This document shows, piece after piece, positions 4,071 to 47,800 of a stretch of 64,000 bases of DNA. Both the position numbers and the translations under genes were made by a program. A model generated the notes under the pieces. It was not told the DNA's origin. It saw nothing but the letters and a program-made list of their open reading frames with translations, and searched no databases. This stretch comes from Nautilus pompilius (Eukaryota; Mollusca; Cephalopoda; Nautilida; Nautilidae), in NCBI GenBank assembly GCA_018389105.1, contig JACATO010002190.1:1-64000 (forward strand), in the 5' to 3' direction. Position 1 is the stretch's first letter. Every line of letters starts with the position of its first letter.

Positions 4071-4142
4071 TAGCAGAGCGTGGTTTCGATCCACGGACCT
4101 CTGGGTTATGGGCCCAGCACGCTACCCCTGCGCCACTCTGCT
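4071..4142 (-). tRNA. Initiator tRNA-Met (CAT), copy 6, fully canonical
   Basis: This is the only copy with every stem fully paired: acceptor AGCAGAG with CTCTGCT, anticodon stem with three G-C pairs, T stem CGTGG with CCACG around the loop AUCGAAA, and discriminator A73. The internal A and B boxes are intact. No run of four T follows closely on the minus strand. The first TTTT lies about 60 nt downstream, so the primary transcript would have a long trailer. Confidence 0.95.
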
Positions 4143-4781
4143 GACATCAATCCCATTATTTGCTGCGCTCTTTGCCTTATTTCTATTATAAAAGTAAAAA
4201 TAAATTCAGGTATTTGCTTCACATTCACAACATCAAATATGCAAATTCATTGATATGTATAAGAATAGCAATGATTTCATAGATCAATTCAAGTAACTTC
4301 GTTTGCATTATAATTATTATTTACTTTTTCTTTGAAAATAAATAGCGCTTTATTTTCAATAATTATAAATGGCATTCATTTATAAAGAGGAATTATGGAA
4401 TCACAAAATAAACGACTGTTAACAATCTAACAGTTGCTTCATGAATTCTGTCACTGAGATAAAGTGCAATAAGAGCCGTAAAGCCACATTGCGAAATATT
4501 GTATTAGCAAATGTTAATCTAACATTTATTCTCTAATTCTTACAATTTTATTAGTTTTACATTATCTGTGAACGTTTACACATCATGTGTGCTAATTGCA
4601 TATTTCCATTCAAATTGGTTTTGTATTAACAAAGAAATCCTATTTAGTACATTCATCTTAACTTTGATACAAAAGAAAATGTATTTCAATGTAAAATAAT
4701 ATATTAATTTTTAAGAAAATTAATGTTGCATTTAATATCAGATTAAGTCACCCTAAACAAATAACTTATCACAGAATAGGT

Positions 4782-4853
4782 TAGCAGAGCGTGGTTTCGA
4801 TCCACGGACCTCTGGGTTATGGGCCCAGCACGCTACCCCTGCGCCACTATGCT
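4782..4853 (-). tRNA. Initiator tRNA-Met (CAT), copy 7, one acceptor mismatch
   Basis: Identical to copy 6 except that acceptor position 5 is T rather than G (AGCATAG), which breaks one pair. Anticodon CAT and the T arm are intact. Confidence 0.85.
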
Positions 4854-18700: not shown

Positions 18701-21700
18701 AGTTTGGCCTGTTATCCTCACGCGTTACTCTCTTCAGCCATTGTTCTCGCAGAGTTTGTCTGTTATTCTCACGCGTTACTCTCTTCAGCCATTGTTCTCG
18801 TAGAGTTTGGCCTGTTATTCTCACGCGTTACTGTCTTCAGCCATTGTTCTTGCAGAGTTTGTCTGTTATTCTCACGCGTTACTGTCTTCAGCCATTGTTC
18901 TCGCAGAGTTTGGCCTGTTATCCTCACGCGTTACTCTCTTCAGCCATTGTTCTTGCAGAGTTTGTCTGTTATTCTCACGCGTTACTCTCTTCAGCCATTG
19001 TTCTCGTAGAGTTTGGCCTGTTATTCTCACGCGTTACTGTCTTCAGCCATTGTTCTTGCAGAGTTTGTCTGTTATTCTCACGCGTTACTGTCTTCAGCCA
19101 TTGTTCTCGCAGAGTTTGTCTGTTATTCTCACGCGTTACTCTCTTCAGCCATCGTTCTCGCAGAGTTTGTCTGTTATTCTCACGCGTTACTCTCTTCAGC
19201 CATTGTTCTTGCAGAGTTTGTCTGTTATTCTCACGCGTTACTGTCTTCAGCCATTGTTCTCGCAGAGTTTGGCCTGTTATTCTCACGCGTTACTCTCTTC
19301 AGCCATTGTTCTTGCAGAGTTTGTCTGTTATTCTCACGCGTTACTGTCTTCAGCCATTGTTCTCGCAGAGTTTGGCCTGTTATTCTCACGCGTTACTCTC
19401 TTCAGCCATTGTTCTCGCAGAGTTTGGCCTGTTATTCTCACGCGTTACTCTCTTCAGCCATTGTTCTCGTAGAGTTTGGCCTGTTATTCTCACGCGTTAC
19501 TGTCTTCAGCCATTGTTCTTGCAGAGTTTGTCTGTTATTCTCACGCGTTACTGTCTTCAGCCATTGTTCTCGCAGAGTTTGTCTGTTATTCTCACGCGTT
19601 ACTCTCTTCAGCCATTGTTCTTGCAGAGTTTGTCTGTTATTCTCACGCGTTACTCTCTTCAGCCATTGTTCTTGCAGAGTTTGTCTGTTATTCTCACGCG
19701 TTACTCTCTTCAGCCATTGTTCTTGCAGAGTTTGTCTGTTATTCTCACGCGTTACTCTCTTCAGCCATTGTTCTTGCAGAGTTTGTCTGTTATTCTCACG
19801 CGTTACTGTCTTCAGCCATTGTTCTCGCAGAGTTTGGCCTGTTATTCTCACGCGTTACTCTCTTCAGCCATTGTTCTCGTAGAGTTTGGCCTGTTATTCT
19901 CACGCGTTACTGTCTTCAGCCATTGTTCTTGCAGAGTTTGTCTGTTATTCTCACGCGTTACTCTCTTCAGCCATTGTTCTCGTAGAGTTTGTCTGTTATT
20001 CTCACGCGTTACTCTCTTCAGCCATCGTTCTCGCAGAGTTTGTCTGTTATTCTCACGCGTTACTCTCTTCAGCCATTGTTCTCGCAGAGTTTGTCTGTTA
20101 TTCTCACGCGTTACTCTCTTCAGCCATCGTTCTCGCAGAGTTTGTCTGTTATTCTCACGCGTTACTCTCTTCAGCCATCGTTCTCGCAGAGTTTGTCTGT
20201 TATTCTCACGCGTTACTCTCTTCAGACATTGTTCTCGCAGAGTTTGTCTGTTATTCTCACGTGTTACTCTCTTCAGCCATCGTTCTCGCAGAGTTTGTCT
20301 GTTATTCTCACGCGTTACTCTCTTCAGCCATTGTTCTCGCAGAGTTTGTCTGTTATTCTCACGCGTTACTCTCTTCAGCCATCGTTCTCGCAGAGTTTGT
20401 CTGTTATTCTCACGCGTTACTCTCTTCAGCCATTGTTCTTGCAGAGTTTGTCTGTTATTCTCACGCGTTACTGTCTTCAGCCATTGTTCTCGCAGAGTTT
20501 GGCCTGTTATTCTCACGCGTTACTGTCTTCAGCCATTGTTCTTGCAGAGTTTGTCTGTTATTCTCACGCGTTACTCTCTTCAGCCATTGTTCTCGTAGAG
20601 TTTGTCTGTTATTCTCACGCGTTACTCTCTTCAGCCATCGTTCTCGCAGAGTTTGTCTGTTATTCTCACGCGTTACTCTCTTCAGCCATTGTTCTCGCAG
20701 AGTTTCTGTTATTCTCACGCGTTATTCTCTTCAGCCATCGTTCTCGCAGAGTTTGTCTGTTATTCTCACGCGTTACTATCTTCAGCCATCGTTCTCGCAG
20801 AGTTTGTCTGTTATTCTCACGCGTTACTCTCTTCAGCCATCGTTCTCGCAGAGTTTGTCTGTTATTCTCACGCGTTACTCTCTTCAGCCATTGTTCTTGC
20901 AGAGTTTGTCTGTTATTCTCACGCGTTACTGTCTTCAGCCATTGTTCTCGCAGAGTTTGGCCTGTTATTCTCACGCGTTACTCTCTTCAGCCATTGTTCT
21001 CGCAGAGTTTGGCCTGTTATTCTCACGCGTTACTCTCTTCAGCCATTGTTCTCGTAGAGTTTGGCCTGTTATTCTCACGCGTTACTGTCTTCAGCCATTG
21101 TTCTTGCAGAGTTTGTCTGTTATTCTCACGCGTTACTGTCTTCAGCCATTGTTCTCGCAGAGTTTGTCTGTTATTCTCACGCGTTACTCTCTTCAGCCAT
21201 CGTTCTTCCAGAGTTTGTCTGTTATTCTCACGCGTTACTGTCTTCAGCCATTGTTCTCGCAGAGTTTGTCTGTTATTCTCACGCGTTACTCTCTTCAGCC
21301 ATTGTTCTTGCAGAGTTTGTCTGTTATTCTCACGCGTTACTGTCTTCAGCCATTGTTCTCGCAGAGTTTGGCCTGTTATTCTCACGCGTTACTCTCTTCA
21401 GCCATTGTTCTTGCAGAGTTTGTCTGTTATTCTCTCGCGTTACTCTCTTCAGCCATTGTTCTCGCAGAGTTTGGCCTGTTATTCTCACGCGTTACTCTCT
21501 TCAGCCATTGTTCTCGTAGAGTTTGGCCTGTTATTCTCACGCGTTACTGTCTTCAGCCATTGTTCTCGCAGAGTTTGTCTGTTATTCTCACGCGTTACTC
21601 TCTTCAGCCATTGTTCTTCCAGAGTTTGTCTGTTATTCTCACGCGTTACTGTCTTCAGCCATTGTTCTCGCAGAGTTTGTCTGTTATTCTCACGCGTTAC

Positions 21701-23988
21701 TCTCTTCAGCCATTGTTCTTGCAGAGTTTGTCTGTTATTCTCACGCGTTACTGTCTTCAGCCATTGTTCTCGCAGAGTTTGTCTGTTATTCTCACGCGTT
21801 ACTCTCTTCAGCCATTGTTCTTGCAGAGTTTGTCTGTTATTCTCACGCGTTACTGTCTTCAGCCATTGTTCTCGCAGAGTTTGCCTGTTATTCTCACGCG
21901 TTACTCTCTTCAGCCATTGTTCTCGTAGAGTTTGTCTGTTATTCTCACGCGTTACTGTCTTCAGCCATTGTTCTTGCAGAGTTTGTCTGTTATTCTCACG
22001 CGTTACTCTCTTCAGCCATTGTTCTCGTAGAATTTGTCTGTTATTCTCACGCGTTACTCTCTTCAGCCATCGTTCTCGCAGAGTTTGTCTGTTATTCTCA
22101 CGCGTTACTCTCTTCAGCCATTGTTCTCGCAGAGTTTGTCTGTTATTCTCACGCGTTACTCTCTTCAGCCATCGTTCTCGCAGAGTTTGTCTGTTATTCT
22201 CACGCGTTACTCTCTTCAGCCATCGTTCTCGCAGAGTTTGTCTGTTATTCTCACGCGTTACTCTCTTCAGCCATTGTTCTCGCAGAGTTTGTCTGTTATT
22301 CTCACGCGTTACTCTCTTCAGCCATCGTTCTCGCAGAGTTTGTCTGTTATTCTCACGCGTTACTCTCTTCAGCCATTGTTCTCGCAGAGTTTGTCTGTTA
22401 TTCTCACGCGTTACTCTCTTCAGCCATCGTTCTCGCAGAGTTTGTCTGTTATTCTCACGCGTTACTCTCTTCAGCCATTGTTCTTGCAGAGTTTGTCTGT
22501 TATTCTCACGCGTTACTGTCTTCAGCCATTGTTCTCGCAGAGTTTGGCCTGTTATTCTCACGCGTTACTGTCTTCAGCCATTGTTCTTGCAGAGTTTGTC
22601 TGTTATTCTCACGCGTTACTCTCTTCAGCCATTGTTCTCGTAGAGTTTGTCTGTTATTCTCACGCGTTACTCTCTTCAGCCATCGTTCTCGCAGAGTTTG
22701 TCTGTTATTCTCACGCGTTACTCTCTTCAGCCATTGTTCTCGCAGAGTTTGTCTGTTATTCTCACGTGTTACTCTCTTCAGCCATTGTTCTCGCAGAGTT
22801 TGTCTGTTATTCTCACGCGTTACTCTCTTCAGCCATTGTTCTCGCAGAGTTTGGCCTGTTATTCTCACGCGTTACTCTCTTCAGCCATTGTTCTCGCAGA
22901 GTTTGTCTGTTATTCTCACGCGTTACTCTCTTCAGCCATTGTTCTCGCAGAGTTTGTCTGTTATTCTCACGCGTTACTCTCTTCAGCCATTGTTCTCGCA
23001 GAGTTTGTCTGTTATTCTCACGCGTTACTCTCTTCAGCCATCGTTCTCGCAGAGTTTGTCTGTTATTCTCACGCGTTACTCTCTTCAGCCATCGTTCTTG
23101 CAGAGTTTGTCTGTTATTCTCACGCGTTACTCTCTTCAGCCATTGTTCTTGCAGAGTTTGTCTGTTATTCTCACGCGTTACTGTCTTCAGCCATTGTTCT
23201 TGCAGAGTTTGTCTGTTATTCTCACGCGTTACTCTCTTCAGCCATTGTTCTCGCAGAGTTTCTGTTATTCTCACGCGTTACTGTCTTCAGCCATTGTTCT
23301 CGCAGAGTTTGTCTGTTATTTTCACGCGTTACTGTCTTCAGCCATTGTTCTCGCAGAGTTTGTCTGTTATTCTCACGCGTTACTCTCTTCAGCCATTGTT
23401 CTTGCAGAGTTTGTCTGTTATTCTCACGCGTTACTCTCTTCAGCCATTGTTCTCGTAGAGTTTGTCTGTTATTCTCACGCGTTACTGTCTTCAGCCATTG
23501 TTCTCGCAGAGTTTGTCTGTTATTCTCACGCGTTACTCTCTTCAGCCATTGTTCTTGCAGAGTTTGTCTGTTATTCTCACGCGTTACTGTCTTCAGCCAT
23601 TGTTCTCGCAGAGTTTGTCTGTTATTCTCACGCGTTACTCTCTTCAGCCATTGTTCTCGCAGAGTTTGTCTGTTATTCTCACGCGTTACTCTCTTCAGCC
23701 ATTGTTCTCGCAGAGTTTGTCTGTTATTCTCACGCGTTACTCTCTTCAGCCATTGTTCTCGCAGAGTTTGTCTGTTATTCTCACGCGTTACTGTCTTCAG
23801 CCATTGTTCTCGCAGAGTTTGTCTGTTATTCTCACGCGTTACTCTCTTCAGCCATTGTTCTTGCAGAGTTTGTCTGTTATTCTCACGCGTTACTGTCTTC
23901 AGCCATTGTTCTTGCAGAGTTTGTCTGTTATTCTCACGCGTTACTCTCTTCAGCCATTGTTCTCGCAGAGTTTGTCTGTTATTCTCCT
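15749..23988. repeat. Satellite array, ~160 units of 51/52 bp
   Basis: About 8.2 kb of near-identical head-to-tail units. Each unit has an ACTGTCTTC or ACTCTCTTC start, AGCCATTGTTCT, CGCAGAGTTT, CTGTTATTCTC and an ACGCGT palindrome. Units with GGCCTG are 52 bp, those with GTCTG are 51 bp, and three lacking GT are 49 bp (near 16084, 20704 and 23259). Other variant sites are CTCGCAG/CTTGCAG/CTCGTAG and CATTG/CATCG. The first two units (15749-15850) are divergent and the last ends abruptly at CTGCCCTC. The + strand lacks stop codons in all three frames except in the CTCGTAG variant, so very long open frames occur. They switch relative phase with each 52-bp unit and are not believed to be genes. 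Confidence 0.98.
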
Positions 23989-26754
23989 GCCCTCATACAA
24001 TACGGCTTTCAAATCATTTTTTATACTCTGCGCTCACAGTAAATCACTTATTTATATATATTGTGGTGTGGAAAGTCTACAAAATAAACAGTTGAATACC
24101 TTCGATTGGAAGGAAAAAAAACATACTAGAACCCTTTTATTTGTTGACGCTAGAATGCCTTCATCGCTATTCACTTCCCCCACCTCTCCTCACCTCCTTG
24201 AACCCTGCGGGTGCCCGACATTTGCTGGCCGTAACATTTTATCACTCGCGGTAAACTCTACTGGATCTGTCCTCCTGTCTTTTATGTGAATTAGCTGCTC
24301 TGTTTTAGGCATCTCTGTTGTTCTTCACATCCCTTTATATCCCCTCCAATACAGAGTCCCTGACCCATTTTACAACACTGTTTGAACAGGGTTAACCCCC
24401 CGTCATGTGTATTCAACTCATTATCCCAGTTACCTTTCTAATACTGCCATTTATCGCGTGCAGTTTATGAGTACCAAACGAACCGAAGAACGAGCAAACA
24501 ACAAGAGGAATATTTATTTTTTAGAATCCGTATAATTGGCAATTAGGTGTATTCCTCCTCCCTTTACGCCTTATTAACTGCGGTGATGTTCTCCGATTTT
24601 GCCATAACATTAATTTAAACTCATCTTTTACCTTCCGATGTAAATGATTTGTTATGGTTGGTAACACCCTGCCAACGTGCGGTGCCTCGGTAAACCAGGG
24701 TGGGGCAGTAAGTTCGAACCTCCCCGAGAGCAGAGACAGAGCAGCTTAATTTGTTTGTTTGTTTTTTTAAAAGGTGGGGGAATTGTTTTGTTCTTCATAA
24801 AAATGAATTTACTGATTATTACGTTTAAAAGACATGAGCATCTTTTATATCATGTTTACTTTACTTATTAAACCTCATCTGAGGTACCAAGGTCGCCGAG
24901 TGCTATCATCTTTTCAGTCATTATTATCGTTATTTTCAGTATTATTATTTTGAAATGCTAAGAGCATCTATTCTTTTAATTATTTTTTGTGCATGTATGA
25001 ATTTATTCAGAGAATTTAATTCGTAATAATAATTTTTTAAAAATATATAGGCTAATAACAACAATTTTTGTCACAATATCTGTAGCTTGTTAATTAACCT
25101 TCTGTATACCATCCTGGGGTGTACTGACACCTCGCTGCTACTCAGATCTGTATTACTCAGCACAGGCTGAGCCATAGGGGCTGGGATACACGCACGCACT
25201 ACTTTCGTCGTCAAAGTAATCTATAGTAACGACAAATCCCATATGTCCCCCAGCCCCACGTGTTCTGTACTAGGAGTGCGCTCAGTAGACATACAGCCGG
25301 CTCAACGCATTACCAGGACGACTGCTTCTAAGGTAAAAGCTACCGTGGTATGCGGAAGGTTAAAATCGATGAGAGAGAGAGAGAGAGATTTAGTCACTTT
25401 CCATATTTCATGAGGAATAAAGAGAAGTATAAATGCCATTGATGAGGAATTTGACTGGGTAGACTTCAAACGAAAGTTAGTGACGTCTAAAATATCGTAA
25501 CAAATAGTTTCCTTAATTTAATATATCTTCAGTTCCCAATGTTACTCTAAGAAAGTAGACAGTAAAACAGTTTACCACGCAAAACTGCTGTGTGAAAATA
25601 CAAAATTGTTAATAAGAAATAAAATGGTCGGATGGTTTGGCATTCAGCTAATCGAATATTATTTTTGCCGGAGCTTACACATCAGCAATTAAAATAAGCA
25701 GATTTAATTCTTTCGAGAATATTTTTTTTTTGTTGCGTTCTACCAGTAATCATTAGCAAAGATGAGACTAAATTCTAATTTTAAAAACCCTAAAATGTAA
25801 GCTTACCTGCTTCAGCTGTGATGATGCCATCTCATCTGTAAGAAACAGAAACGAAGGATAATGAAGCAGACAAATAGAAGAGCGAAATGAAAAAAAGAAA
25901 TTCTTGTTCGTTTAAACTAAATTCTGTTTATAATCTAAGCAGAACTCAAATATTCCGCAGTTCAGTATTCTACAAAAACTCTAATTTTAATATAATTTTT
26001 TGTGTACTTACAGCACCATCGTTTGGATACAATGTTCGTACTGTGTACAACAAGAGAAGTGACGCGAGTGAGAGTTGGTTTCGTTGTCCATGGCAATAGA
26101 TGCCAACATGCCAGAAAACGGTGCAGTTATAATTCTGGCCAGTTCATGAGATTACTCCAATTTGTTGCCTTGTTCGTAAATGTGCCATGTCTTGATTTAG
26201 CCACCATCATGAATAAATGTATCGCCGAAATTTACATACATCAGGTATGATGTACGGGTGATCAGTTAATCAGAGTGCGCTATCGCCATACGGAAATCAA
26301 GCAGATTCTGTCTATCCCTGGTCTTGTTACAGGCTATTAGTAACGACATGTTGCCAAAGATCTCGAAATTTCTTGTGGATCTGCAATTTATGCTCGCAGG
26401 TCGAATATAGGTTTGAAGAAGATCTACCGAAGACATTCAGCTCAGGGTCTAATATTGTGTCGGAAGCGTTACAATACGGGTTTCCATCTGGCGTGGTAAA
26501 ATTAATATTCGTCGAAAAACAACGCAGTCTTACGAGATACATTACCGTTTTAAAGAAGCATCTTTGTGGGAACAAGGCATATTGAGATTCAATGCGCATA
26601 TTCTTTAATAAGATGGTTCTACATGTCAAACGTTGTATTACCATGTTCAACTTGTTTTCCTTGGTTCGCCAAATTCGAATAATTTTGTAGCATTTGGATC
26701 GTCAGCTGGCAGTAACCCATCCACCTGCTGCCAATAGGGTGGCATTAAGAGGAG

Positions 26755-27950: not shown

Positions 27951-28032
27951 CAACAGTTTACATATAAACGACTGATATGGCCATCAGTTTGTTTCTCTCT
28001 GTACTGGTAGCACTGCCGATTTCTGTGGTAAT

Positions 28033-28075
28033 GTATTATTATTATTATTATTAATATTTGTTGTAGTAGTAGTAG
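28033..28075. repeat. (ATT)n and (GTA)n trinucleotide microsatellites
   Basis: Two short trinucleotide runs separated by about 15 bp. Confidence 0.85.
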
Positions 28076-29036
28076 ACCTATTACTTTTAGATTTCAAACA
28101 AGACCTAATCACTGAGGATTTCTGATGCATTGACAGCAGCAGCAAATTATCCGTTACTCGCAGGTAAAAATACTACAAATACAAACTGGGTAGAGATTCG
28201 GCACGGCCAGATATTGTGGTCAGGGAGATGTAGGGATACAACTGACTGATAGTAATAGCGGTAAGCGAATGGATTTTGGTTGGTAAGTGGTGAACATAGA
28301 TTCGTTTAAACAGTTTACTTATATGCATTTCTTTTCCTTAGGAAAATAGATTTGCTTAAGTCGTGATGGGCTCCCTATTTCTAGTCACTGCCCTCTAGCA
28401 GTAACCAAAAGGAACTCCCAGAATTCGTTTAAAAGAAGTGAAGGGATAAATTCGGGTTTTCTGTATTCATCGCTACAAAGTGGTCGGGCACCTGTGGTGA
28501 GCCACCTGATCGCTGGCTGCTGGTTCTGCGCAAGCGTCCCCGAGAAATGCTGACAAATCTGGTAGGAAGCATACACGAGGATTTCCTGCCCTTTCTAAAG
28601 GGTTCACTGGTTCCTTAACGCAATGACCAGATCCAGGCGTCCTTCCTGAAATTCTCTCTCTCTCTCTCTCTCAATTTGTTTATTTGTTTTTCTCTCTTTG
28701 CTTTCTTCCTTCGTGGTGTTTTTTTTTTGTTTTTTTTTTCTGTCAACCTCACCAGAGGTTTGCAGCCCTATTTTCTTTTATTATGATGGAGAGACGGCGC
28801 TCCAGGCCCTCGGATGGATGGCTGTTCCGTAATTTACCCCTTGTAAAAAGGGGGGGTTCATTTATTTGTTTTATTGTAAAAATCCTCCTAAATGATGGCT
28901 GTTGCCTTCCAATGGCATAACTTTATTTTGGAAACCCTTTACTGGTCCATCCGTCTGTTGGACTGGTTACCATTTATTGCACTCACCCGTCATGTCCAGT
29001 AAAATATAACCGTACATGTGGTAATTTACATACCGC

Positions 29037-29077
29037 GGGGCCGGGGCCGGGGCCGGGGTGGGGGGGGTGGTTGGTGG
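29037..29077 (+). repeat. GGGGCC hexanucleotide repeat and G tract
   Basis: Three GGGGCC units are followed by GGGG, then an 8-G run and TGG repeats. This gives more than four G-runs within 41 bp, so G-quadruplex formation is possible on the + strand. Confidence 0.85.
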
Positions 29078-29569
29078 ACATGTAACGCGAAAGATAGGAA
29101 ACAGCGTCGAGGCTAGCGGATTGATAATGGTAGAGGCAACGCCAATACAAAACCTGGTCTTTTGTTTGCTGCCTTCTAAAACGGCTGGACTTATTTCGGA
29201 AATCGCTTTAGGTATTTGTCTGGAATTTAAAACTCAATTTATTTATGTTTTTCTATTTTTCCGTTGCTCTGGAGACGTTGTCAAGGGAGGTAATTACGGG
29301 CAGAAATCTTTTGAAAATGCCCTCCTACTATAAATGAAAATTGTTTATATTTGTTTGAAAGACTGATTCTCAATTGGATGACATTAAGAAGGTGAAATAA
29401 AGAATCATGATTTATGGTCTAAATCATTAACGAGCCAATTACCACCTCAGCCATCGAAGATGTCAGAAATGTTTGTTAAATAAAGAAGCCAGAATTGCAG
29501 ATGTCTTTTTAGTGTAAAGATTTCTGAAACACACACACATCAGTCCCGGCGGCATGGGCCCGCCCCTCA

Positions 29570-29860
29570 ATGTAACAGCCCCCTCATTTTATGCTTAAAT
29601 CTCTCATTGGGCCTATAGCCCCTGCACCAGTTTGTTGGTGCCCAAGTTGGCCTAAAGCTGAGCTGGCTAGTGCCACAGTCCAGTCCTTGTAGCGTGCTCT
29701 GCCCCAGGCGTCGAGGTCCGAGTCTTTTAGCTGCAGGCCCCAATGGCGTTAGCCAATGGGACCAGGGCTCGATTGTGTCAGTCATACTGTGGTAACAGTT
29801 CGAGTTCTGGCCCCTGTCTTTCTATTATGATTTTTCTTATGTTGCTTTAAAAAAATCATT
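29570..29860 (+). repeat. Possible tRNA-derived SINE
   Basis: An A-box-like TGGCGTTAGCCAATGGG lies about 50 bp upstream of a B-box-like AGTTCGAGTTC near 29800. A T-rich and A-rich tail follows. Tentative, since no second copy was compared. Confidence 0.35.
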
Positions 29861-29940
29861 GTGCCCCCGGGTCTGCTCACACACATGCACACACACACAC
29901 ACATACGCGCGCACTATATATGTTTGTTTGTTTTTTTCAG

Positions 29941-32900
29941 TTTTCACACGGTGAGGCTACCGACATAAAATGCGAAGATTACTGTCCACTTTCATCTTCC
30001 TCAGAGCTGCTGGTTTGCGATGTCCATGACAACAACAATATCTGTCGAAAAAATGTTGCATGCCATGGAGAAAGTGACTGTCGGCATTTCCGTACGTGAT
30101 TCGAAATAAAGGTTTCTTTCTTTAAAAAAAAAACTTTAAAAACGCAGGCTTTTAGTTTTTTTAAAAAGTAAAATAAAATCTTTTTCTTTTTTTTGTAAAC
30201 AATGACTATGGTGTGTCTTTAATACAATATCAGGGGAGGTAAGTAAGGTGTTGTTTCTTTGTCCGAGGCTCCTAATGTATCTATACACGCAGTGGCTGAC
30301 ACTAACCTTTAGAAATCAGCCGTTTGTTAATCGATAAGTGAAGCCCGGTCTTTCAATAGAAGACAAGAACTTTGACGTTGTCTTAACGTGAAGAGCGAGC
30401 AGCACACTCTTCCTCGCTCGTTAATCAAGCCCACGTGAAAGACTCAAACCGACGGCCTCGACTTATAATAGGAGTGTTATTCACAATCAAACTCGTTGGT
30501 TTTTGTTTCTTCTCTAATTTCCAAAATAAAATTTACATCAGATGAACCTTTATCGTCTTGTTTGTTTTCTTGCTTATTGTCTAACCCCGCCCCCTTATTT
30601 TTGTTTCTTTTTTAAGTGGGACAGAAAACTAGGGCTGTTTGTGTTCCGGCTCCTGACATCGAGAAAGATTTCGAGAAATCAGGTTTATGCGGAGGTATGA
30701 CAGACCTGTCTTTCTTTGTTTAAACATTTACTTACCTGAAAAGCCTCCCTTTTATATATTAGTAACAATACCCCGCACCACACACGCAAAGTAATTTAGC
30801 TGCTTGTTTTATTTTTGTCCATTTATTTTGCTCATAAGTTTGCCCCTGACACCACCCCTTTCTTTAAAAATGTTAGTTTTTAACCCTTTGCTTAAATCTG
30901 AGCTCCACTAACCTTGCAACCCGCCTAACGAAGTAGGGGCTGTGACTTCCTTATTATTATTATTGTCCTCTATGGCATCCTAACCATTCGTGTTCGGCAC
31001 CACAACTGTATTTAAATAACAGTCCAACACAGGTGCAAGAGTCAGGGCCTCTGGGATACCAAGTGATATAGGAGGTAAGAGTTGGCCAGGTATTTATCAG
31101 TGCCCAAATCATGAATTGGTGAATACTTCTGAAACCAGGGATGATTTCAGAATTTTCATGGATGCCCATTTCAGAGGCTAAAGGAGCTGTGTCTGTAGAA
31201 GTGGGAATTTTTCTACCTTTCAGATTCACCTTTACAGCTTGTTTATATCCCTAAATATTCTAAGTACCATATGGTGGAAGGAGCGAGGTACATTTTAGAT
31301 CTGTCACGTAAAGAGAAACAGATGAATATTCTCTTCTCCATGTGAAAAATCTGAATAACAAAGTTCTTAATTAACTTACATAACAAACTTTTTTTCCATT
31401 TAAAAGACGGCTGTGAAGTTACCCAAAGTCAGGTAGGAGATGGTAAATATCCATGCAAAAACAATTAGCGATTGGTTGTTTGCTTTAAAGCTTGTGGACA
31501 GATTTCGCTAGTTTGTAGTTTAATGAAGATGGATGGGTGTTTTCTTTCTTTCTATTATTCAGACTGTAGTACATCAATGGACTGCAACAAGCATGACCCA
31601 AAGAGCAATGGCAAGACTATTTGTTACAAGAACCAATGCCTGAAGAACATCCCTTGCAAAACCAATGAGCAATGCTCAAGATATAGTACGTATAGTATAT
31701 TCCAGGTTATAGGTGAGGATAATGCAGCTTTAAGAGATTTTTTTTTAAATTTCAAATTGAAACTACGACAGGGTATGCTGTAAAACCTTGTTTTAGACAT
31801 TTATGGGATGAGTTAAAGCTGAAATGCACAGAATGGTAAATCAGACAACCTTCGGGGTTCCATCTTTCGATTGGTCCTTTAAATAAAAGTGGACTGCGGG
31901 CGGATTTCGTCGAGCATCCGTCTACCTGTGATCTGCCTGAAACAGCTCGCGCAAAACCGGTGTAGGGCTAAACCTTTAACCCTTCCACGGCAAAACTCTG
32001 CCAATGAACATTTATCAAATTTCATCCTTTCTCTCGAGTTCGGCAATTCCAACCAAACTTGGTCAGTTCATTTCATTTCCGTGATTTAAGAAAAGCGGAC
32101 TTCATTATTTTCAGCATCTTTCCTGATGGATAAAAATCACCTGGAGAACAGACCTCCGCCAGATGCTTACTAACTCGGTGTATTCGTGTAGCCACAGGGG
32201 ATGTTATTGGTTAATGACAGACGATTATGGCTCCTAGTGAATGTAAATTTAATGAGAGACTTTAAAATGTGTTTGCAGTACCTTCTTCCAGTATGAAACA
32301 TTGGTAAAAAAATTATTCTTTATCAACAGATACTGGTAAAATAGACACTGTATCTTGCCAAGAGGATGTCTGCACCTTCGTTCGTGAGTATCTTCTTTTT
32401 CTGCCGGTGATGTCGCGCTGTTCTTTTGTACGTAACCTCGAAAAATCCACTTTGTCTAGAACCTTATAGTTAGAGTCGCTTCCAGAGGGGGAAGAGTAAA
32501 TTTGTTCCCATGCGATCAGCTGCTGGAACAATCATTGTATACCTGCAGAATTAAGTGTTAAGCATCTGTGGAATGATAACAAGGGAGGTAACTCTTTGTT
32601 TTTGGAAGAATATTGATTCTGTAGTTGAATACAAGTTGAAATTTAGATGATTTGTAGTGTGTGTGTGTGTGTACTTTCAAGTTTAACATCATTTTCGGTT
32701 TTTTAAGAATTTACTTCAGCATAAAAGATTTTCGTGTTAAAATGAAAGGATGGTTGTAAAGGTCATTTCAAAACGTAAAATTGTATTATTGCTACCATTT
32801 CTTTTATGTAATGAGGGACGCCATTTTATGAACCTCCTAAAACAGAGAGAGAGAGAGATTATGTTGTGTTTAGGGAGATCTGTCAAATGTATCATTATAG

Positions 32901-35900
32901 TGCCACACTGACATGGTTGTTGTGAGAGAAGCTTTCACACCTTTGGATTAGCACCTGTTGATGTGACGATAATTTAATGCACATGTCCAGCAAGCATAAT
33001 TGTGTGCGACTGTTGACATATCCGATGAAGGCGCATGATGTCATGGTTACCGTTAAGCTTATGGGCCTGCTGCTTCCATCTTCAGCAGCAAATGGAAAGT
33101 CTAGGTTAGAACTGCTCTGTTTAGTCACAAGGAGGACCCCCCCCAACACACACACACCAACAAACTGGTAAGGAAGGTTAAGAAGAAATGATACTGAGAG
33201 AGGTTTGTCAGAGCACCTGAGACCCCAAAGAAGAATAAACTTGGCCCCTCTGCCTTAGCAGGATGGTACACTCAGCCATCCACTGCCCACGCATCAAAAT
33301 GGACATCATTATCTATGCAGAAAATAATAATAATAATAATAAATATGCAGACCTCACTATTGACTACTATTACTTTGTTTGGCAGAGCCATTATTTTCTT
33401 CTTTTTTGCTGTTTTAAAAATATTTTTTGGCAAAACCTTTGGTATTTTACTCAAGCTAATTATCGCCTTCTTTCTTTCTTTCTTTTTTTTTTTTGGAAAA
33501 ACCTTTAGGTACTCCAAAAACTGGCAGTGAACCCATCCGTAAGTATAACTCTGAAGGAAGGTAGCTGTGATGTTAGTCTTCAAATCTCACTATAAATTAA
33601 GCATAATTCAAATTGAGGACTGGTTCGTTGAAGAATGGCATTTGCCAGACCAACATAAATTATCTGATGCTAAAAGTTAAAGCAGGTACACATGCCTCAC
33701 TGGTTTCTAGTCATCGGTAGTTCTGTAACCAGGAGGGTGTGGCAAGTGGATTGTGGGCCTGTATTAAGTGTACCATGGTTGATAGCATGCATAAGGGATC
33801 TGGCTAGTAAGTAATATTAGTGATGGATCTGAGAAGCCAATACTTTCAGTATAGACAGCTTATTAGAAGTTACGGAAGTTAAGGATTGCTCCTTAATAAT
33901 TTTTTTAGGGTTCTTACTGGCATTCTGAAGTTTTAATAAGTACACATCTTTTATTCAGATATCCATTTAGCAAACCTCTAGCTGTAGAATATCTATGAGG
34001 ATGTAGGTATTAAGCTTTTTGAACCATTTTGGGTTGATTTTTCCAGTCACACAGATCTCTACTCAAGAACTGGATTCCAATCTGAATCAACAGGGTTAAT
34101 GCAAGCAGCTGTTTATAATGACATTGCCCGAACCTTAGTTCCCAGATAAAAAATCACATCTAAGCTTTGATTGTATACTCATGCTGTCACCAACAGACCA
34201 TGTGTTTAGCATAGTTATGCATACACACCAAGTCAGTGGTGTTATGATATACACACGCATCTACTGCCATTGGATGTGTAGAAGTGGCTCCCTGTACGAG
34301 TGCAGCAAGATGTTTCACAAAAACACTCAAATCTCCTGGATTGTTGGAGTGAAAAATGCTGGGCTTTAATGCCTAGACACAGGAAAGGGGGTCACAGAGC
34401 TGTAGATATCTTGTGAAGAACTTGAAAAGGGTTAGAAAGCACACAAAAGGAATAGCTTTTGTTGCATCACAAATAACCTCTTACACAGCAAGCAGGGACG
34501 CATCACTATACATAGCATTTGGTTCCGACCCCTGACCTTCAGGCAGAGCAAGTATTTCAGGACCACAGGCCAACTGCAGCCATGTTTTCACCCCCCAAAT
34601 TTTTAATTTATAAATGAAAAGGAATCACTTTCAACAAGTACCCTCATCTCTGAATTGTTTCTGCCTCATTTTCGCATCCTTGACAAACTGTACCTACCTG
34701 GTCATGATGGCTACAAAGTTGTCATTCACTAATTCACAAAAGGCCATCAACATTTTTAATCATCATTACATACTTCCATTAACCTGGGTATCTGACATTT
34801 TTTTTTTTTTTTTAAAATCTTCTACCACCACTTTTGTTAGTTATAAAATTACTGACATTTGCGCAAGCCTTTTCTGTCACCTGTTCTTAGGCTGGTTGGT
34901 GGTCCATCAGAAGCTCTGATGGGTCAATGGGCACTGACAACAGAAGGTCCCCCACAACCAAAGTTACCTGATTACAAAATAGGATGGGATGTAATGCCTC
35001 ATGTGGACTGACAGCTGGACATTACAAAGTCATGCTCTACAGTGTTAGGAGCCAAACAGACCCATCCTGTCACCAATGAATCATGACACCAAAGGTCCAA
35101 TGTGAGATTGATCAAAACAATGCTGAAAACCTAAAGTCCACACAATACATAAAAGCCACATGGGCATCCTGCAGCATCAGCTTGATGCTACTCTCCCAGA
35201 GTCTTGTTAGAGTTCTTCATCACTGTTCTCTGCACCCAGATGGCTGATGAAATTGCCCGTTTCAGAAAACTCTTAGTTTATAACAGTGAAGATAAAAGCT
35301 TGAAAAGTATGTCGGACACCTCAGTTCCACCAACATCCTGCAACTGTTTTCTACTGATCCCTATGTTTTTCTCAAATTAGATAACAAAAAAATTTGATTT
35401 TTGTTTTTTTTTTTCCAAATTTAGAATGCAAAAGGTCACGCAAGTGCAACAAGAGTAATCCAGAAAAGAAAGGCCGATCTCTGTGTTATAAAGGAACTTG
35501 TCATGACAACATTTTATGTAAACAAAATAGCGATTGCTACAAATATGGTGAGTAGGTTTGATTAAGTTCTTTGAAATAAGACCAGGAAAATTTTAAAGAA
35601 ATTAATTCCAGTTAGAGAGAATCAAATTTGGAAAATTGTGAAGTCCAGCTACTAAGACCAGAGCAGATGTGGCTGATAGCCAGCAGTTTTAACCCATCTC
35701 TAATTTTTCAGCTAGCTTGACAACTGGTGAACTTTGACATTGGGGCTATCAATTCTGCCACCTATTGGGCTTATAACTGTCAGTTGGTACAGTTGATCAA
35801 TAGGCCAATATCTGAATAGTTCTAAATGTCAACAAAATTGTTGTGACATAATGTTTGCGATATGCTTTAGAGACCTTTATTTTAATAGTTGAACTAGTTT

Positions 35901-38900
35901 AAAAAAAACAAACTAGCTGCTTTATTGTGTGGACTTCAGGACTTTTCTGGTTCGGCAATATTCCATTGTGCTGTTGATAAACTGAAGCAAACACCAATCA
36001 CTGTAGTTTAAATTATGCTTTATTTTTCTTTTTCTTCTCCCACCCCTAGCAAAAGCTGATGGTCAAAAAAGAAAACCAACCTGTGAAGAGGGTTTCTGCA
36101 CTGCTAATACAGGTAAGTATTGAAGTGTTGCTGGCATAAATCGTTGAGGGCCCGTGCAAATACTATAAGCCTGACTGGCATATTATGACCCATTCATTTC
36201 CGAACCAAAGCTAGTTAAGACAAATAGTTCAACAGACATTTCTACCCAACCCTCCTCAGTGAAGATCATGGAAGGATTAATATGAAGGCTTTTAAAATTA
36301 CCAAGGTTGAAGAATAAAAAGTGGGGTCTCTGCACTCAACAGAGGCTCCTAAAGATTTCAAGCTTTGTTTTCATCTTATCAAGGATGAATATATATATAT
36401 ATATATATTCCTTCAGTAGCGGGTTGGTTATGCAATTTATTCAATTAGTTTCTTTCCATCCATCTCTCTGGGCAACAGGAACACCTGCATGATCTCGCAA
36501 GGGTTAATGTTATTTGTACTGACCAGACAGTTTAGCTGTGACCCAGTGTTGCCAGAACTCTACTGGATTGGAGTTTTGATGCACCAGAACCCACTAGAGC
36601 TATTCTGATCAGTAGGATGGAGGTGCAAGAGTAACTGTTAACTGAAATCTGCCATAGCATGTCCACCCAGTGCCTGGCACTCAAAGATGGATATTTGTTT
36701 CTCCCTTTATGACTTTCCTTACAAAATAACTTATTAACTATTGTCAAATGACAATAGGGTCATGTTGACTTTACCAGAATTCATAAACAGACTTTAATAA
36801 CTATACTAACTCTAAACTTTACCAGACCAACCTAAAATGTGCAGCCTAGTTTTAAAGACTCAACAGCTTCATCCATTCCACATTTTCCTGGAAACATAGG
36901 TCTACTAATCCAAGGAAACATTCTTAAAATACAACTTACAATTCCCTTTTTTTCCAATTGTCCTTAAACACTCACTATCCCATTAGCATGTACACAAGAA
37001 AATTCATCTGTTAAGAATTTAACCCTTACCACATTAAACAAATTCTCCTCTCACAAGCTGCTTCTTAGCAAAGCACTTGAGCATAAAGAAAATTGGACTT
37101 TTTTATTTTAAATGTTTACAAATATGTTGTTGTTGTTGGTTTTTTTTTTTCCATTGTGTAATTCCTCTTTATAAAATATTATCCATTTTTGTTTTATTCA
37201 GCAGGGCGACAAGAAAAGGGTAAGTATTATCGTTACTTTTATTTGAAGCTACCAGTTAAGAAGCTGTCACACAGACAACATGAAAGTTTGTATTAAATGT
37301 TTTGCACACACACACAAAAAACACACCCTGGTGGTAATAATAAACACTTTTTTTTTTTAACTTATAGAAAGCAAGGGTTAAAAAGACTTAAGCTACCACC
37401 AGCTCATTATAGTGCGCTGTTCTAAGCTGCAGATATAAATCACACAAGGAGTTTAATCTACATTTCAGGATGCAACAGCTCGGAGGACTGCTACAAACGA
37501 AATCCAGAGAAGCCAGCCCTATGTCACAAAAACCAGTGCATGGAAAACATCTCCTGTTCTCAGCATCATGATTGCTACGAGTATGGTAACTAAAACTTTT
37601 TACTTATAGGAAATAGAAAAAACTGCTGTCTGTAATGACAACGTTCTTGGTTAGTCATCGTTATAGACAGCAGTTATTAATTTACTGACATTATATGCTG
37701 AGATCGATTGTTACCACTGAAAGACACTACAGGGCAGGCAGTGGATACAGCCGGTCTAGTATTTCAAACATTTAATGATTATAAAATACTACTCTTCCAT
37801 TTACTTCAAAGAATATAGACTTTCATTATCTTTTTCTTTCTTTTTTTCCGTTTCTTAACTTATCCAGCTGTGGCTGATATTGAGAAAGAGCTATTTCCTT
37901 ATTGCGAGAACAAGATCTGTATTGCCAACATCAGTAAGTATGAAATGATAAAGCAATACCTTTCGTTCTAATGTAACATCTCACAAATACACTACTAGAA
38001 ACAGGTAAATGATATCTAACTCTTACTTTACACTTTGGAGATGTAAGAAAACTTTTGGTTGTGCTGTGACTGATTTCGAATTTGTTTAGCTCTGAACAAA
38101 AAAACATGATGCTATCTTTCTGTATATCCGATTTTAAAACATACCTGCCAATAACAGTTTTGTATCAGGCTGCAAACTAACACAGAAGCCATTTGTCCAA
38201 ATAAACCAGACACCTGTATAGAATTTCTGATATGAAATATGCTTTGAATTTGATCCAGTTGGAGTTGGATAAGTGGATTCAGATGCTGATGATGAATCAA
38301 TCAATCCTGCACCAACAGAGAGATTGGTTTTCTTCATATTCTTGGTGTTTTCCTTGTAAAGTTGCATATAGACTGGGATTTCTATTTTAAAGGCATTGAG
38401 ACAAAGCACACATGAACATTGTAGAAAGACGAATGGATACGAAACAAATTGATACATTTTCATCGCACATAACTCAGCAAGGTTTGCACTGCATTATGGG
38501 GTAATTCAAAATGGCTAACAGCTGTTACTATGGACTTTGTGACTAAAGTTTAAACGATTCATTCTTAATGGACACCTAGATTTTAGGACAAAAAAAAAAG
38601 TCATCAGGTGGATATTTAAATGCAAGAGTAACACTTTAAGGAAAACTGTGGAACATGCAATTATTTTGCTGCTGTATCATTAGAATACATCCATATAAAA
38701 AAACTACTCACTCAGTTAGTTTATTATGAAATTAAAATTGCTCCAGATTTTGTTATGGGAGTGGCCATAATACCTCCCAAAAATAGGATTCATCACTGCC
38801 AAACAAGACCAACATTAGGTTTGATGCACATTTAAGACAAAAAATCTTGACTTAAAATTATCCAGTAATATAATAGACAATACATAACATTCCACTGCTC

Positions 38901-39513
38901 ACCCTAAAACACACACAAACATCAGACTCCCCTCCCAATCTTCATTATATAACAGCGTAAGCTTCATAGTAAGTACTTCACATTTTTTCCCATGTCATCT
39001 AGAGGTTTACTGAAGGAGGTATTGCCAATTTTTAGTATGCCCCAGACGGCATGTACCACTTGCATTAGCACACAAATCTATGGATAAAAGTATACAAACT
39101 TTCTTCACAAAACATTTTGGTGGCTTTCAAATTTTAAAAAGCACGCACATACATTTTTAATGTTAATTTATCAGTGAAAATGTGAAGGACTTGTGGTTAT
39201 TATTTCACAACTAAACTAAGCTTTGAAGATGAAAATCTGCTCATAAATAGAAATGATAATCTGACAATTTATAGTACTGACATTTTGTAATGTTTAGTTT
39301 TTTTTTTCTAGTTCCCACATATACTTTTTTAATTACTGCTTATGGTTTAAGCATGAATATCCTTTCACACAGCCAGCTAGATACTAGTAAAAAATCTCAC
39401 CATTTAGCACTACAATGTTTTTGCATCCATTGATTTTTCTATTTCTAATAATCCTCATCCATAATTTCCATTAATCTATTATTATTATTATTATTATTAC
39501 AGGTGCTGATTAG
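29941..39513 (+). CDS. Modular cysteine-rich, probably secreted protein (5' exon missing)
   Basis: Family not recognised. Visible exons: 29941-30091, 30617-30694, 31407-31442, 31563-31685, 32330-32383, 33509-33538, 35425-35547, 36050-36112, 37202-37219, 37469-37585, 37868-37933 and 39503-39513 (stop TAG). They join to about 289 residues with about 33 cysteines. The gene is four repeats of a three-exon cassette: a long exon with six Cys (C-x5-C-x10-12-C-x4-C-x5-C-x5-C; the first copy is more divergent), a short exon with C-x4-C, and a tiny linker exon of 18-36 nt. All introns inside the series are phase 1, so any cassette or linker can be skipped without a frame change. The first visible exon begins in phase 0, so a signal-peptide exon upstream is expected but was not found. 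The spacing recalls EB/Dickkopf-like disulfide modules, but homology is not claimed. Confidence 0.8.
34500..34585 (-). repeat. Possible tRNA-derived SINE head
   Basis: The minus strand reads like a tRNA body with a B-box-like GGGGTCGGAACC and an upstream A-box-like TGTGGTCCTG. It lies in an intron of the cysteine-rich gene. Low certainty. Confidence 0.3.
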
Positions 39514-39615: not shown

Positions 39616-39621
39616 AATAAA
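39616..39621 (+). terminator. Polyadenylation signal AATAAA of the cysteine-rich gene
   Basis: AATAAA lies about 100 nt after the TAG stop codon, giving a short 3' UTR. Confidence 0.65.
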
Positions 39622-41843: not shown

Positions 41844-44800
41844 TCAAGAATGTGTCAAATATGTTCGATGACTGGATCTAACATTCTTAGATTTATTACA
41901 TTTTTCCTGATGTTCTGAAGAGGAAGAGGAATTTGACCTTTGTTGTTGAAACTTTAATCTAGATGTCCTTGACTTTTTAGATTTCTTGGATCGTGAACCA
42001 AGCGAGCTTGATGAGCCAGAATCTGATCGGTGCCGAGATCTGACTTTTGAATGCTTGGCTGACTTTCTATGGGATCTGACAACTGGTGAGGCACTAGATG
42101 AGGAACTTTTGTGTCTGTGACCAGAGTTATTTGATCGCTTACGAAACCTCGAATGGAATGAGCCAGAGGAGCTGTAAGATGAGGTTGAGTTGTTTCGACC
42201 ACGGATTTTAGCCCTTGATCTTTTACGAGATCTATAGTAAGAGAAGTCGGATGAACTTGAGTCTGATCTGTAGGTTGATTTAGACCTTGAACGTCTCTTC
42301 ATCTTTCTATGAGACTGTGATAGAGAACTACTAGACGAAGAATCTCTACTATTCCTTCGCTGTCTTGCATGATGATGCGCTTTTTGTTTTGACCTCAACC
42401 GTTTTCTTCTTGATTTCCTCTGCACTGATGTCCTTGACCTTGAAAATGATCTATGCCGGCTGTAATACCTGTGCGTTTCAGCAGCCATGTGACTTTTGCC
42501 CTTAACCGAGTCTCTTGAGTGATTGTAGTTTTGATAAGGAAACTTTTCACGATCTCTGTATTGTATCCAAAATTCATTGCCAGGATTATGGAAAACATGC
42601 AGGAAGTTGCAATTCTTTCCTCTGGAGCATTTATGCTTGCTAAATAAACCTTAAAAAAAAAAATGTTTAAAAGATTCATTAAGATAATCATTCATATACT
42701 TTATTCATTTTTTTAAACAATAATATAAGAGAGTTTTTTTAAAAATTTCTTTCTTTTTTCAAATATAAACCACTAAGAGACTGCTCACTAGTGAGAAATC
42801 ATATTTAACCAATCTTTCATTCCTTACCATACTCTGAAAATTCATAAAACTATAGCAGGAAGAGGTAAAACAGAGTCGAATAAAATGACATTTCCATCTA
42901 CATTTATAAATTTGGAAAGCACCAAAGAAAAAACTAAGGCTGACATACCACAGATTGCCCGCTTCCATGATGCAATGTCCACAAACTGGCAGGACAACTG
43001 TTTACCTGCGTAAAACCTCCCATTGAACTTTCTAAAAGCAGCTACAGCATCTTTTTCACTACAAGGAAAATAAAGATGAAAACAGTAGTCATAATATTGC
43101 AGACTCTTAGATTTACAGTACTCATCACAATTACTGCAACACTGGGAAGTGCCAAAAATATGCACCGCTCTAGTCTCACTGTACGTGAACTTTTAAATCT
43201 AGTTATTGTGTCATACAACATTAAGATTTAGAAGACTTCAGATTTTAAATATTCAAACATGTTAATAACAGAAATGGGCAAAAGAGGGGTAAGGCACATA
43301 CACCAACATAAGCAACAATGAAGAAAAAAAAATGTGGGATTGTAAATTACATTGGGACAAATTTTAAGAGAATAAATAAATTTAAAAACCATGCTAAGAA
43401 AACATGTTAATTAAGTTCAACTGATGACTACAGCTTTAAACATAAGGAAATTTATCAAAATTTACTATTTCAGCCAAGACTATTGATGTTCATTAGTTTG
43501 TTATTTCATTACATCTATAGCCACTTGGCAATCATTAAAACAAATTACCATCAACATTCTTCAACAGTTATTAGCTATGAAGAATACACTGCTTTGGTTT
43601 TGTTTTTCATTATTGTTCCTATGTAGTTGAATGTCAGAAGTCCACTTTCCATCATCCAAAAGATTGAGCTTTTATAAAAAAGGTTGACAAACAGACAGAC
43701 AGACAGATAGATATATAGGTGCATCTCAAAAAATTAGAATATCATGGAAGAATTCAATATTTTTTGTCAGTTATTTCAGAAAGTGAAAATTGTATATATT
43801 CTAGACTCATTACATGTAAACTAAAATGTTTCAAGCATTTTTTAATTTTAATTTTGATAATTACGGCCTACAGCTAAAAGAAATAGAAAAAAGGTATCTC
43901 AAAATATTAGAATATTCCATTTGAGTAAATCACTATTTATGCAGTATAAATACCATGAATCTCTCAGTCTGGTTCAGTACACAACCACAATCATGGGGAA
44001 GACTGCTGACTGACAGTTGTCCAGAAAACACTTATTGACACCCTCCACAAAGAGGGTAAGCCACAGAAGGTCATTGCTGAAAGGGCTGGCTGTTCGCAGA
44101 GTGCTGCATCAAAGCATATTCATGGAAAGGAAAAGTGTGGTAGAAAAAGGTGCACAAGCAAGAGGGATGACTGCAGCCTTGAGAGGATTGTCAAGCAAAG
44201 CCAATTCAAGAACTTGGAGGAAGCTTCACAAGGAGTGGACTGAGGCTGGAGTTAGTGCATCAAGAGCCACCACGCACAGATGTGTCCAGGAAATGGGCTA
44301 CAAGTGTCGCATTCCTAGTGTCAAGCCACTCCTGAACCAGAGACAACGTCAGAAGCGTTGTACCTGGGCTAAGGAGAAAAAGAACTGGACCGACTGTTGC
44401 TCAGTGGTCCAAAGTCCTCTTTTCAGATGAAAGTAAATTTTGCATTTCATTTGGAAATCAAGGCCCCACAGTCTGGAGGAAGAGTGTAGAGGCACAGAAT
44501 CCAAGTTGCTTGAAGTCCAGTGTGAAGTTTCCACAGTCAGTGTGATTTGGGGTGTCATGTCATCTGCTGCTGTTGGTACACTGTTTTATCAAGTCCAAAG
44601 TCAACACAACCGTCTACCAGGAGAGTTTAGAGCACTTAATGCTTCTGTCTGCTGATAAGCTTTATGGAGATGTTGATTTCCTTTTCCAGTAGGACTCGGC
44701 ACCTGCCCACAGTGCCAAAACTACTAGTAACTGGTTTGCTGACCATGGTATTACTGTGCTTGATTGGCCAGCCAACTTGCCTGACCTGAACCTCATAGTT

Positions 44801-47800
44801 TCTCTATGGGGTATTGTCAAGAGGAAGATGAGAGACACCAAACCCAACAATACAGACGAGCTGAAGGCCGCTATCAAAGCAACCTGGGCTTCCATAACAC
44901 CTCAGCAGTGCCACAGGCTGATCGCCTCCATGCCACGCTGCATTGATGCAGTGATTCATGCAAAAGGAGCCCTGACCAAGTATTCAGTGCATAAATGAAC
45001 ATAATCCGAATTTCTGAAAAGTTTCTATATTATAAATCCTTTTTTTTTTATTGATCTTATGAAATATTCTAATATTTTGAGATAGTGGATTTTTGATTTT
45101 CATGAGCTGTAAGCCGTAATCATCAAAATTAAAACATAAAAAGGCTTGAAATATTTCACTGTAATGAATCTATAATATATGAAAGTTTCACTGTTTGAAT
45201 TAAATTACGGAAAAAAATGAAATCTTCCACGATATTCTAATTTTTTGAGATGCACCTGTAGATAGATAGATATCAATCACTATTCTTTTTTATTATTCTG
45301 GGCAAACTGGCTAGATAATAAAAACAAAATGATGTTTTAAATGTTAGAATTACAATAAATCTGTCCCCAATTAAAAAAAAAAAAAAAACCCATATCAGAT
45401 CCTGATTTTGCCACAAATGGATCACCTTTAAAAAAAAAAGTTTAATAATATATCAATTTTTCTTGTTCTTGTGATGAGTTTAAGAATTTCTAGAAAATAA
45501 CATACTTACTACTTGTATTGAACATACACATTTCCTCGTAGATGTGGCTCGTAATTGCAGCACACCTTGAACTGGATAACTTTGCCAACTTCTTTAAATT
45601 CTGGCAAGACATCGTTATAGAATTCCTTGAAAATTACATACACTTCGGAATCTTCATATTCAAGGGCTAGATCTAAAACAGAAGAAAGTCTACTATGACT
45701 AAAGATAAAAATCATTTTCTTTCTTCTGTCCCTATAAATGGCACACCTGTAATTTTTTTTCATTTCAGGTCCTAAAATGCGCATTTCCAATTTTAAAAAG
45801 TTTCACAGAAAGGAAGATGCTATCAGACATCAATGCTCACCTAGAAGTGAAGAGCTGCTCTCTTCCTGGTTTGCAGTAAGCTAAAATAAGTTGCACAGTA
45901 TTTTCAGATCTACCCTAGAAATAGGTCATAATACATGACAAATCCAAATTCATCATAAAAATTCTGTCATTTACTTGTGAAAAGAGGTTTATAGATTGAT
46001 CAAAGGAAATTACCCCTCTCAGTTTAAGCAAAAATGTTAACTGAGAATAATTTACTTTAAAAAAGAAGAAAACTAAAATTCAAACTTTTTCTTCAACTAC
46101 TGTACCAATCTTAACATTTAAAATAATTTCTATATGTATCCTTTGCAAATGTTTCTCCATCATCACCACTAAGAAAACCAAAAGTTGCTGAAGTGATGCA
46201 GGAGTAAATGATTAAGTTTCTTCATGATCTCTTGATGTAACTACTGATCAAAAACATTTGATGATTTTACTGAAGCCATTTACTGATAAACATCTATTGG
46301 GCCAAGAAATGATCATAAGAGTGACAAAACAGTAAAATGCTTTATTCATTTTCTAAAATTCTCTTTCTGCTTAAAACAGAGTATCTCTGTCAAACTGGAT
46401 AACAGAAGAGACGACTCAACATTGGAGCAGTTCTGTCCAAATCAGACCAGTTGACATGCAAATAGTTCTCCACTGTCAGGACCAGGATACCCATTCATAG
46501 CCATTTAGAGGGTAATGAGAAAATTCCCAAAGTAATCCAGAAGTGAGAGAAAGCAATCACCAACAGCATTCAAGTCCATATCTTGTTAATGTACCTGTCG
46601 AAAATCTGAGTAGAAATAAAACAAAGTTACTTTTCCGCACACAAACTACACATCACTGTACCTGTGTCGAATTCATCAAAGAGGCCAAGGTCCAACTTGA
46701 AATGAGTGAACATTCCAGGAAACAGCAATGTATCACTGGTCTCAGGTTGTGGGTGAGCACGGGAACAGCTTGATAAATAAAAGAATTGATAAATCAAAAC
46801 AGATTTGACATTAATTTCAAAATAAAAGAAGAAACATTCATCAAACAATTTATATGCACATTTTAAAAAGTGCCAGAGAAGCTAGAACAAAAAAAAAACA
46901 AAGAGCATGCATACATTTCATAATCTTAGGTGGTAAGAAAATGTATGAAAGAACACATTTTCTCATGTTTTAGTAGATTTATAAATCTAAATGGAAAAAA
47001 ATGCTATATTCTTTCTCATCATCATCCAATTAGTGATCCTTTTATTTACTCCTACAGACACAAGTAACACATACAAGTGCATCTCAAAAAATTAGAATAT
47101 CGTGGAAGAGTTCATTTTTTTCCGTAATTTAATTCAAACAGTGACACTTTCATATATTATAGATTCATTACAGTGAAATATTTCAAGCCTTTTTTTGTTT
47201 TAATTCTGATGATTACGGCTTACAGCTCATGAAAATCAAAAATCCACTATCTCAAAATATTAGAATATTTCATAAGATCAATAAAAAAAAAAGGATTTAT
47301 AATATAGAAAATCCGAATTTCTGAAAAGTATGTTCATTTATGCACTGAATACTTGGTCAGGGCTCCTTTTGCATGAATCACTGCATCAATGCAGTGTGGC
47401 ATGGAGGCGATCAGCCTGTGGCACTGCTGAGGTGTTATGGAAGCCCAAGTTGCTTTGATAGCGGCCTTCAGCTCGTCTGTATTGTTGGGTTTGGTGTCTC
47501 TCATCTTCCTCTTGACAATACCCCATAGAGAAACTATGGGGTTCAGGTCAGGCAAGTTGGCTGGCCAATCAAGCACAGTAATACCATGGTCAGCAAACCA
47601 GTTACTAGTAGTTTTGGCACTGTGGGCAGGTGCCGAGTCCTGCTGGAAAAGAAAATCAACATCTCCATAAAGCTTATCAGCAGACAGAAGCATTAAGTGC
47701 TCTAAACTCTCCTGGTAGACAGCTGCGTTGACTTTGGACTTGATAAAACACAGTGGACCAACACCAGCAGATGACATGACACCCCAAATCATCACTGACT

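Follow-up and report, generated by a model that had tools for sequence, protein, structure and literature searches.

The window analyzed here, a 64,000-nucleotide (nt) stretch of contig JACATO010002190.1 of Nautilus pompilius, carries on its forward strand a gene for a modular, probably secreted protein that is rich in cysteine. Judged from its cysteine spacing, the true unit of this protein is a repeat of about 30 residues with four cysteines, smaller than the three-exon cassette (a six-cysteine exon, a small two-cysteine exon and a linker) that the initial annotation had taken as the basic unit. Each of cassettes 2-4 comprises two such repeats.

The four-cysteine repeat

The gaps between successive cysteines are 5-12-4-5-5-12-4 in cassette 2, 5-12-4-5-5-14-4 in cassette 3 and 5-10-4-5-5-15-4 in cassette 4, so that each of these cassettes reads as two C-x5-C-x(10-15)-C-x4-C repeats joined by a five-residue spacer. 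When the six half-repeats are aligned, the four cysteines form the only invariant columns. A profile of the first halves scores the second halves of cassettes 2, 3 and 4 at 3.8, 5.4 and 4.1 bits, values equalled by 261, 101 and 147 of 4000 shuffles, respectively, in which the cysteines were kept fixed. Homology between first and second halves is suggested by these sequences, not proven, and the same test lends little to no support to the halves of cassette 1 (418/4000 and 2040/4000).

Four copies of the cassette had been proposed, a claim that holds well for three. Profiles of the six-cysteine exons built with one cassette left out, and run against 2540 six-frame fragments, regained the omitted cassette 2, 3 or 4 at expectation (E) values of 5.8e-11, 3.3e-14 and 5.4e-11. 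By this measure cassettes 2-4 are clearly homologous, and their six-cysteine exons are 40-53% identical to one another. The six-cysteine pattern (middle gap 8-16) has three matches in the six frames of the window, all at these exons, and none in 100 local shuffles; the four-cysteine pattern also has three matches, with a shuffle mean of 0.28 and a maximum of 2. Cassette 1 is a weak relative at the sequence level. Against the profile of all three other cassettes it reaches E 0.036; the leave-one-out profiles score it at 0.13, 0.088 and 0.068, and an unrelated fragment does better (E 0.016) when cassette 2 is the one omitted. Its status as a copy is supported by place, exon order and phase. The cysteine gaps of cassette 1 (3-10-8-5-5-11-15) differ from those of the others and lend no support to its being a copy.

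At a minimum length of 30, the region 28100-39500 has five direct-repeat families, mostly T-rich and 30-35 nt long, plus a single inverted pair, so at this threshold no intron DNA is still shared between the cassettes. Their duplication is probably old. The gene probably grew as phase 1-1 exon blocks were duplicated, class 1-1 modules being described as typical of exon-shuffled extracellular proteins (PMC8001218).

Exon chain and splicing

The features of the gene are as follows.

27977-28027, + strand, candidate signal-peptide exon encoding MAISLFLSVLVALPISV; donor gtaatg in phase 0, fitting the phase-0 acceptor at 29941
29941-30091, + strand, diverged six-cysteine exon of cassette 1; phase 0 in, phase 1 out
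30617-30694, + strand, two-cysteine exon of cassette 1, C-x15-C; phase 1-1
31033-31074, + strand, candidate linker exon A, 42 nt, without cysteine; phase 1-1; included in the 308-residue model
31407-31442, + strand, candidate linker exon B, 36 nt, one cysteine; phase 1-1; outside the 308-residue model
31563-31685, + strand, six-cysteine exon of cassette 2, 123 nt; phase 1-1; from exon model, profiles and pattern scan
32330-32383, + strand, C-x4-C exon of cassette 2, 54 nt; from exon model
33509-33538, + strand, linker exon, 30 nt; from exon model
35425-35547, + strand, six-cysteine exon of cassette 3, 123 nt; from exon model, profiles and pattern scan
36050-36112, + strand, C-x4-C exon of cassette 3, 63 nt; from exon model
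37202-37219, + strand, linker exon, 18 nt; from exon model
37469-37585, + strand, six-cysteine exon of cassette 4, 117 nt; from exon model, profiles and pattern scan
37868-37933, + strand, C-x4-C exon of cassette 4, 66 nt; from exon model
39503-39513, + strand, last coding exon with TAG at its end; from exon model
39616-39621, + strand, poly(A) signal AATAAA; read off the sequence

The 13-exon chain on the + strand (27977-39513) has a closed frame of 309 codons including the stop, giving 308 residues with 32 cysteines. All 12 introns are GT-AG, and all but intron 1, which is in phase 0, are in phase 1, in agreement with the phase 1 introns previously noted between cassette exons. The six-cysteine exons of 123, 123 and 117 nt were recovered as described at 31563-31685, 35425-35547 and 37469-37585. 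The short exons with C-x4-C (54, 63 and 66 nt) are those of cassettes 2-4, the small exon of cassette 1 being C-x15-C instead. As for the linkers, given earlier as 36, 30 and 18 nt, the latter two were found, while the first is one of two main candidates (36 or 42 nt) between cassettes 1 and 2. Linker A has a strong donor and a poor pyrimidine tract (7/17), linker B a better tract (13/17), and the sequence favors neither decisively. The open frame, splice sites and phases, together with the homology of cassettes 2-4 and the two-fold cysteine periodicity, are established at the level of the DNA.

The exons placed at 29941-39513 are largely borne out, but an upstream candidate for the signal peptide, 27977-28027, had been overlooked. 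Of the 65 ATG-to-GT candidates in phase 0 that lie upstream, it comes third when hydrophobicity and donor score are roughly summed, and its product is the most hydrophobic among the 15 candidates listed; the highest combined score belongs to 26146-26244. With this hydrophobic first exon, the predicted protein is likely secreted. The several donors that score poorly (the one after 30091 is, on a rough score, the weakest of the 12) and the uncertainty of the signal exon and first linker could mean that the gene is decaying or unexpressed, or that its exons are wrongly chained. This is extremely unlikely, given that the frame is open all through, that cysteines and phases are conserved among six-cysteine exons of such modest identity, and that repeats in the region are limited to those listed above.

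Skipping of any exon had been described as frame-preserving, and many isoforms as possible. The frame is indeed kept, but the intron after the six-cysteine exon falls between the second and third cysteines of the second repeat, so that loss of a single cysteine exon splits a four-cysteine unit and leaves half a repeat. This weakens the case for many isoforms, and skipping of single cysteine exons was rejected as a likely source of useful ones. Loss of a linker exon or of a whole cassette would leave the repeats unharmed and is possible. The linkers also bear on whether the protein is a precursor that releases individual cysteine-rich peptides on cleavage at basic sites, as the repeats with short linkers and seven dibasic positions might suggest. 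All seven lie within modules and none in the three modelled linkers, and we regard such processing as highly improbable.

Family searches, predicted fold and function

No known domain family was matched above threshold in the Pfam, NCBIfam and PDB searches, the prokaryote-oriented NCBIfam library giving no match at all; together with the hydrophobic first exon, this bears out the description of a modular, probably secreted protein of unrecognized family. The closest Pfam line, Nodulin_late (PF07127), the family of the legume NCR (late nodulin) peptides, scores 23.3 bits (E 8.3e-5) against the 201 residues of cassettes 2-4, under its cut-off of 30.4, a score in which the tandem repeat counts a single likeness several times. 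It reaches 14.9 bits against the full 308-residue model and 17.6, 18.5 and 13.4 bits against cassettes 2, 3 and 4 taken singly. When all residues other than cysteine were permuted, Nodulin_late was matched by none of nine shuffles at E ≤10, so the likeness seems to be more than cysteine spacing; three of the nine matched other Pfam families (E 0.15-0.44).

Four-cysteine NCR peptides are defined by the spacing C-x5-C-xn-C-x4-C (PMC10673856), a framework present in all six half-repeats of cassettes 2-4 and in neither of the two of cassette 1. The legume peptides and the gene have in common this framework, a likely signal peptide and a predicted helix followed by a hairpin. They differ in that NCR peptides are short, single-domain plant peptides, whereas the gene encodes an animal protein of 308 residues with six clear and two diverged units. 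AlphaFold models of the six-cysteine exons of cassettes 4 and 2 (mean predicted local distance difference test scores of 75.0 and 70.1) place a helix at 4-10 and then a hairpin, which is also the order in NCR13; there the helix extends up to C10, the hairpin comprises 20-24/27-31, and the isoform PFV1 has disulfides C4-C23 and C10-C28 (PMC11637438). The NCR likeness may reflect either descent or convergence onto one small fold.

Other matches were weaker. Pfam DUF7107 (PF23416) shows below-threshold profile similarity to cassettes 2 and 4 (11.3 and 11.1 bits; cut-off 24.6) and is unlisted for cassette 3; a literature search on this family found no paper, and one on the exact cysteine-spacing strings found only NCR and zinc-finger matches. 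Cassette 3 has weak Pfam lines to PIF3 (E 0.038) and Toxin_6 (E 0.27). Modules of the EGF, EB, WAP and Kunitz types were unlisted by Pfam at E 10, with HMMER filters discarding most matches above about E 0.1. Among PDB lines, the lipoprotein-receptor repeat 1d2l (E 0.019) aligns with a stretch that bridges cassettes 3 and 4 and was judged a cysteine coincidence; the others were NCR13 (7th8, E 0.33), acetate kinase (E 0.89) and 1wfe (E 5). In viral contigs, profile A2 gave 28 pattern stretches and no relatives. The CS-alpha-beta fold of defensins and scorpion toxins combines C-x3-C in a helix with C-x1-C in a strand; the gene has C-x5-C and C-x4-C and was not assigned to that group.

The best overall explanation, to which we give about an even chance, is that the gene encodes secreted, helix-hairpin folded four-cysteine mini-domains in tandem that serve as a multivalent extracellular binder. 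There would be two mini-domains per cassette, six of them clear and the two of cassette 1 diverged. The models lend moderate support to a unit made of a short helix with C-x5-C and then a beta hairpin with C-x4-C, and analogy with one NCR13 isoform lends the same to disulfides 1-3 and 2-4 within the unit. More tentatively, the array might be a protease-resistant extracellular binder in which repetition yields avidity, and its likeliest use might be as a defense protein or a protective protein of a secretion fluid. The predicted protein is near-neutral (isoelectric point 7.9), which counts against simple membrane lysis.

A content of 32 cysteines in 308 residues is also what might be expected of a disulfide-cross-linked structural matrix protein of egg capsule, mucus or cuticle, like avian CREMP or the cuttlefish egg-case proteins. 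The latter are described as cysteine-rich and network-forming (PMC4500399), and CREMP, from the avian eggshell membrane, as having paired four-cysteine modules in a 59-residue repeat, C-X4-C-X5-C-X8-C-X6 (PMC3068167); both CREMP and the gene thus have an eight-cysteine unit of about 60 residues. However, the CREMP pattern is absent from the gene on comparison of gaps (4-5-8-6 against 5-(10-15)-4-5), there are no more than four cassettes, and the even cysteine count per cassette suggests pairing within modules. A matrix protein is a serious alternative, if an unlikely one.

The claim of an undescribed system was too strong, since a tandem, cysteine-rich, secreted architecture is described for the SCREPs, or secreted cysteine-rich repeat proteins (PMC6262176). 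The gene is likewise probably secreted, a pure tandem repeat and cysteine-rich, and cassettes 2-4 are tandem homologous repeats of the kind that defines this group. SCREP denotes an architecture and not a single fold, and the folds named for it (Kazal, ICK, Kunitz, WAP and thyroglobulin; PMC6262176) were unlisted by Pfam for the gene. A multi-domain venom or salivary effector of SCREP type, binding prey ion channels or enzymes, would agree with this architecture and, weakly, with the Toxin_6 line and with two scorpion peptides matched by Foldseek (E 5.6 and 7.0). Yet these matches are at chance level and no paralogue appeared in the genome searches with cassettes 4 and 1, and we hold such a role to be very unlikely. 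The window belongs to a 283127-base contig in a genome of 727.6 Mb and 2558 contigs. Searches of that genome, which score the best candidates only, gave four matches for cassette 4 at E ≤0.001 (six candidates, six scored) and two for cassette 1 at E ≤10 (two candidates, two scored), all within this gene. Over the remaining 219127 bases of the contig (64001-283127) the best profile matches reached only E 0.57, 0.63 and 0.24, and the bare four-cysteine pattern, counted without a shuffle control, occurred in 5 of 11744 fragments; none of these five ranked in the top eight for any profile.

A bolder proposal, which we find decidedly doubtful, is that the units belong to a family of animal domains that has yet to be described and that has the NCR fold, with six to eight of them per secreted protein, a multi-headed equivalent of the peptides with which legumes control bacteria. 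If the fold holds, the four-cysteine helix-hairpin frame of plant symbiosis peptides would have a second, animal setting, and the gene would be a clean case of enlargement through phase 1-1 exon blocks with borders that lie off the structural repeat. At present it is a single unplaced gene, its product probably secreted.

Neighboring features

As minus-strand neighbors, the gene has a GT10 fucosyltransferase and a reductase whose domains are F420_oxidored and Ferric_reduct, an architecture that we take to be that of STEAP; both fit an animal genome. At 516-4853, also on the minus strand, lies a tandem tRNA-like array in which Rfam finds six genes spaced at about 711 bases or double that, and ARAGORN makes five tRNA calls, four Met(CAT) and one Ile(AAT). 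A minisatellite with a 51-base unit occupies 15786-23986 (160 copies, 95% matches); several of its frames are open and its + strand is strongly T-rich. Minus-strand open reading frames at 41844-58542 have SR-rich and charged stretches and presumably resemble a U2AF35-related splicing factor; one piece of them, 42842-43192, had no Pfam match. Tc1-type transposase-like fragments, recognized by eye, lie on opposite strands at 47334-47999 and 44014-44430.
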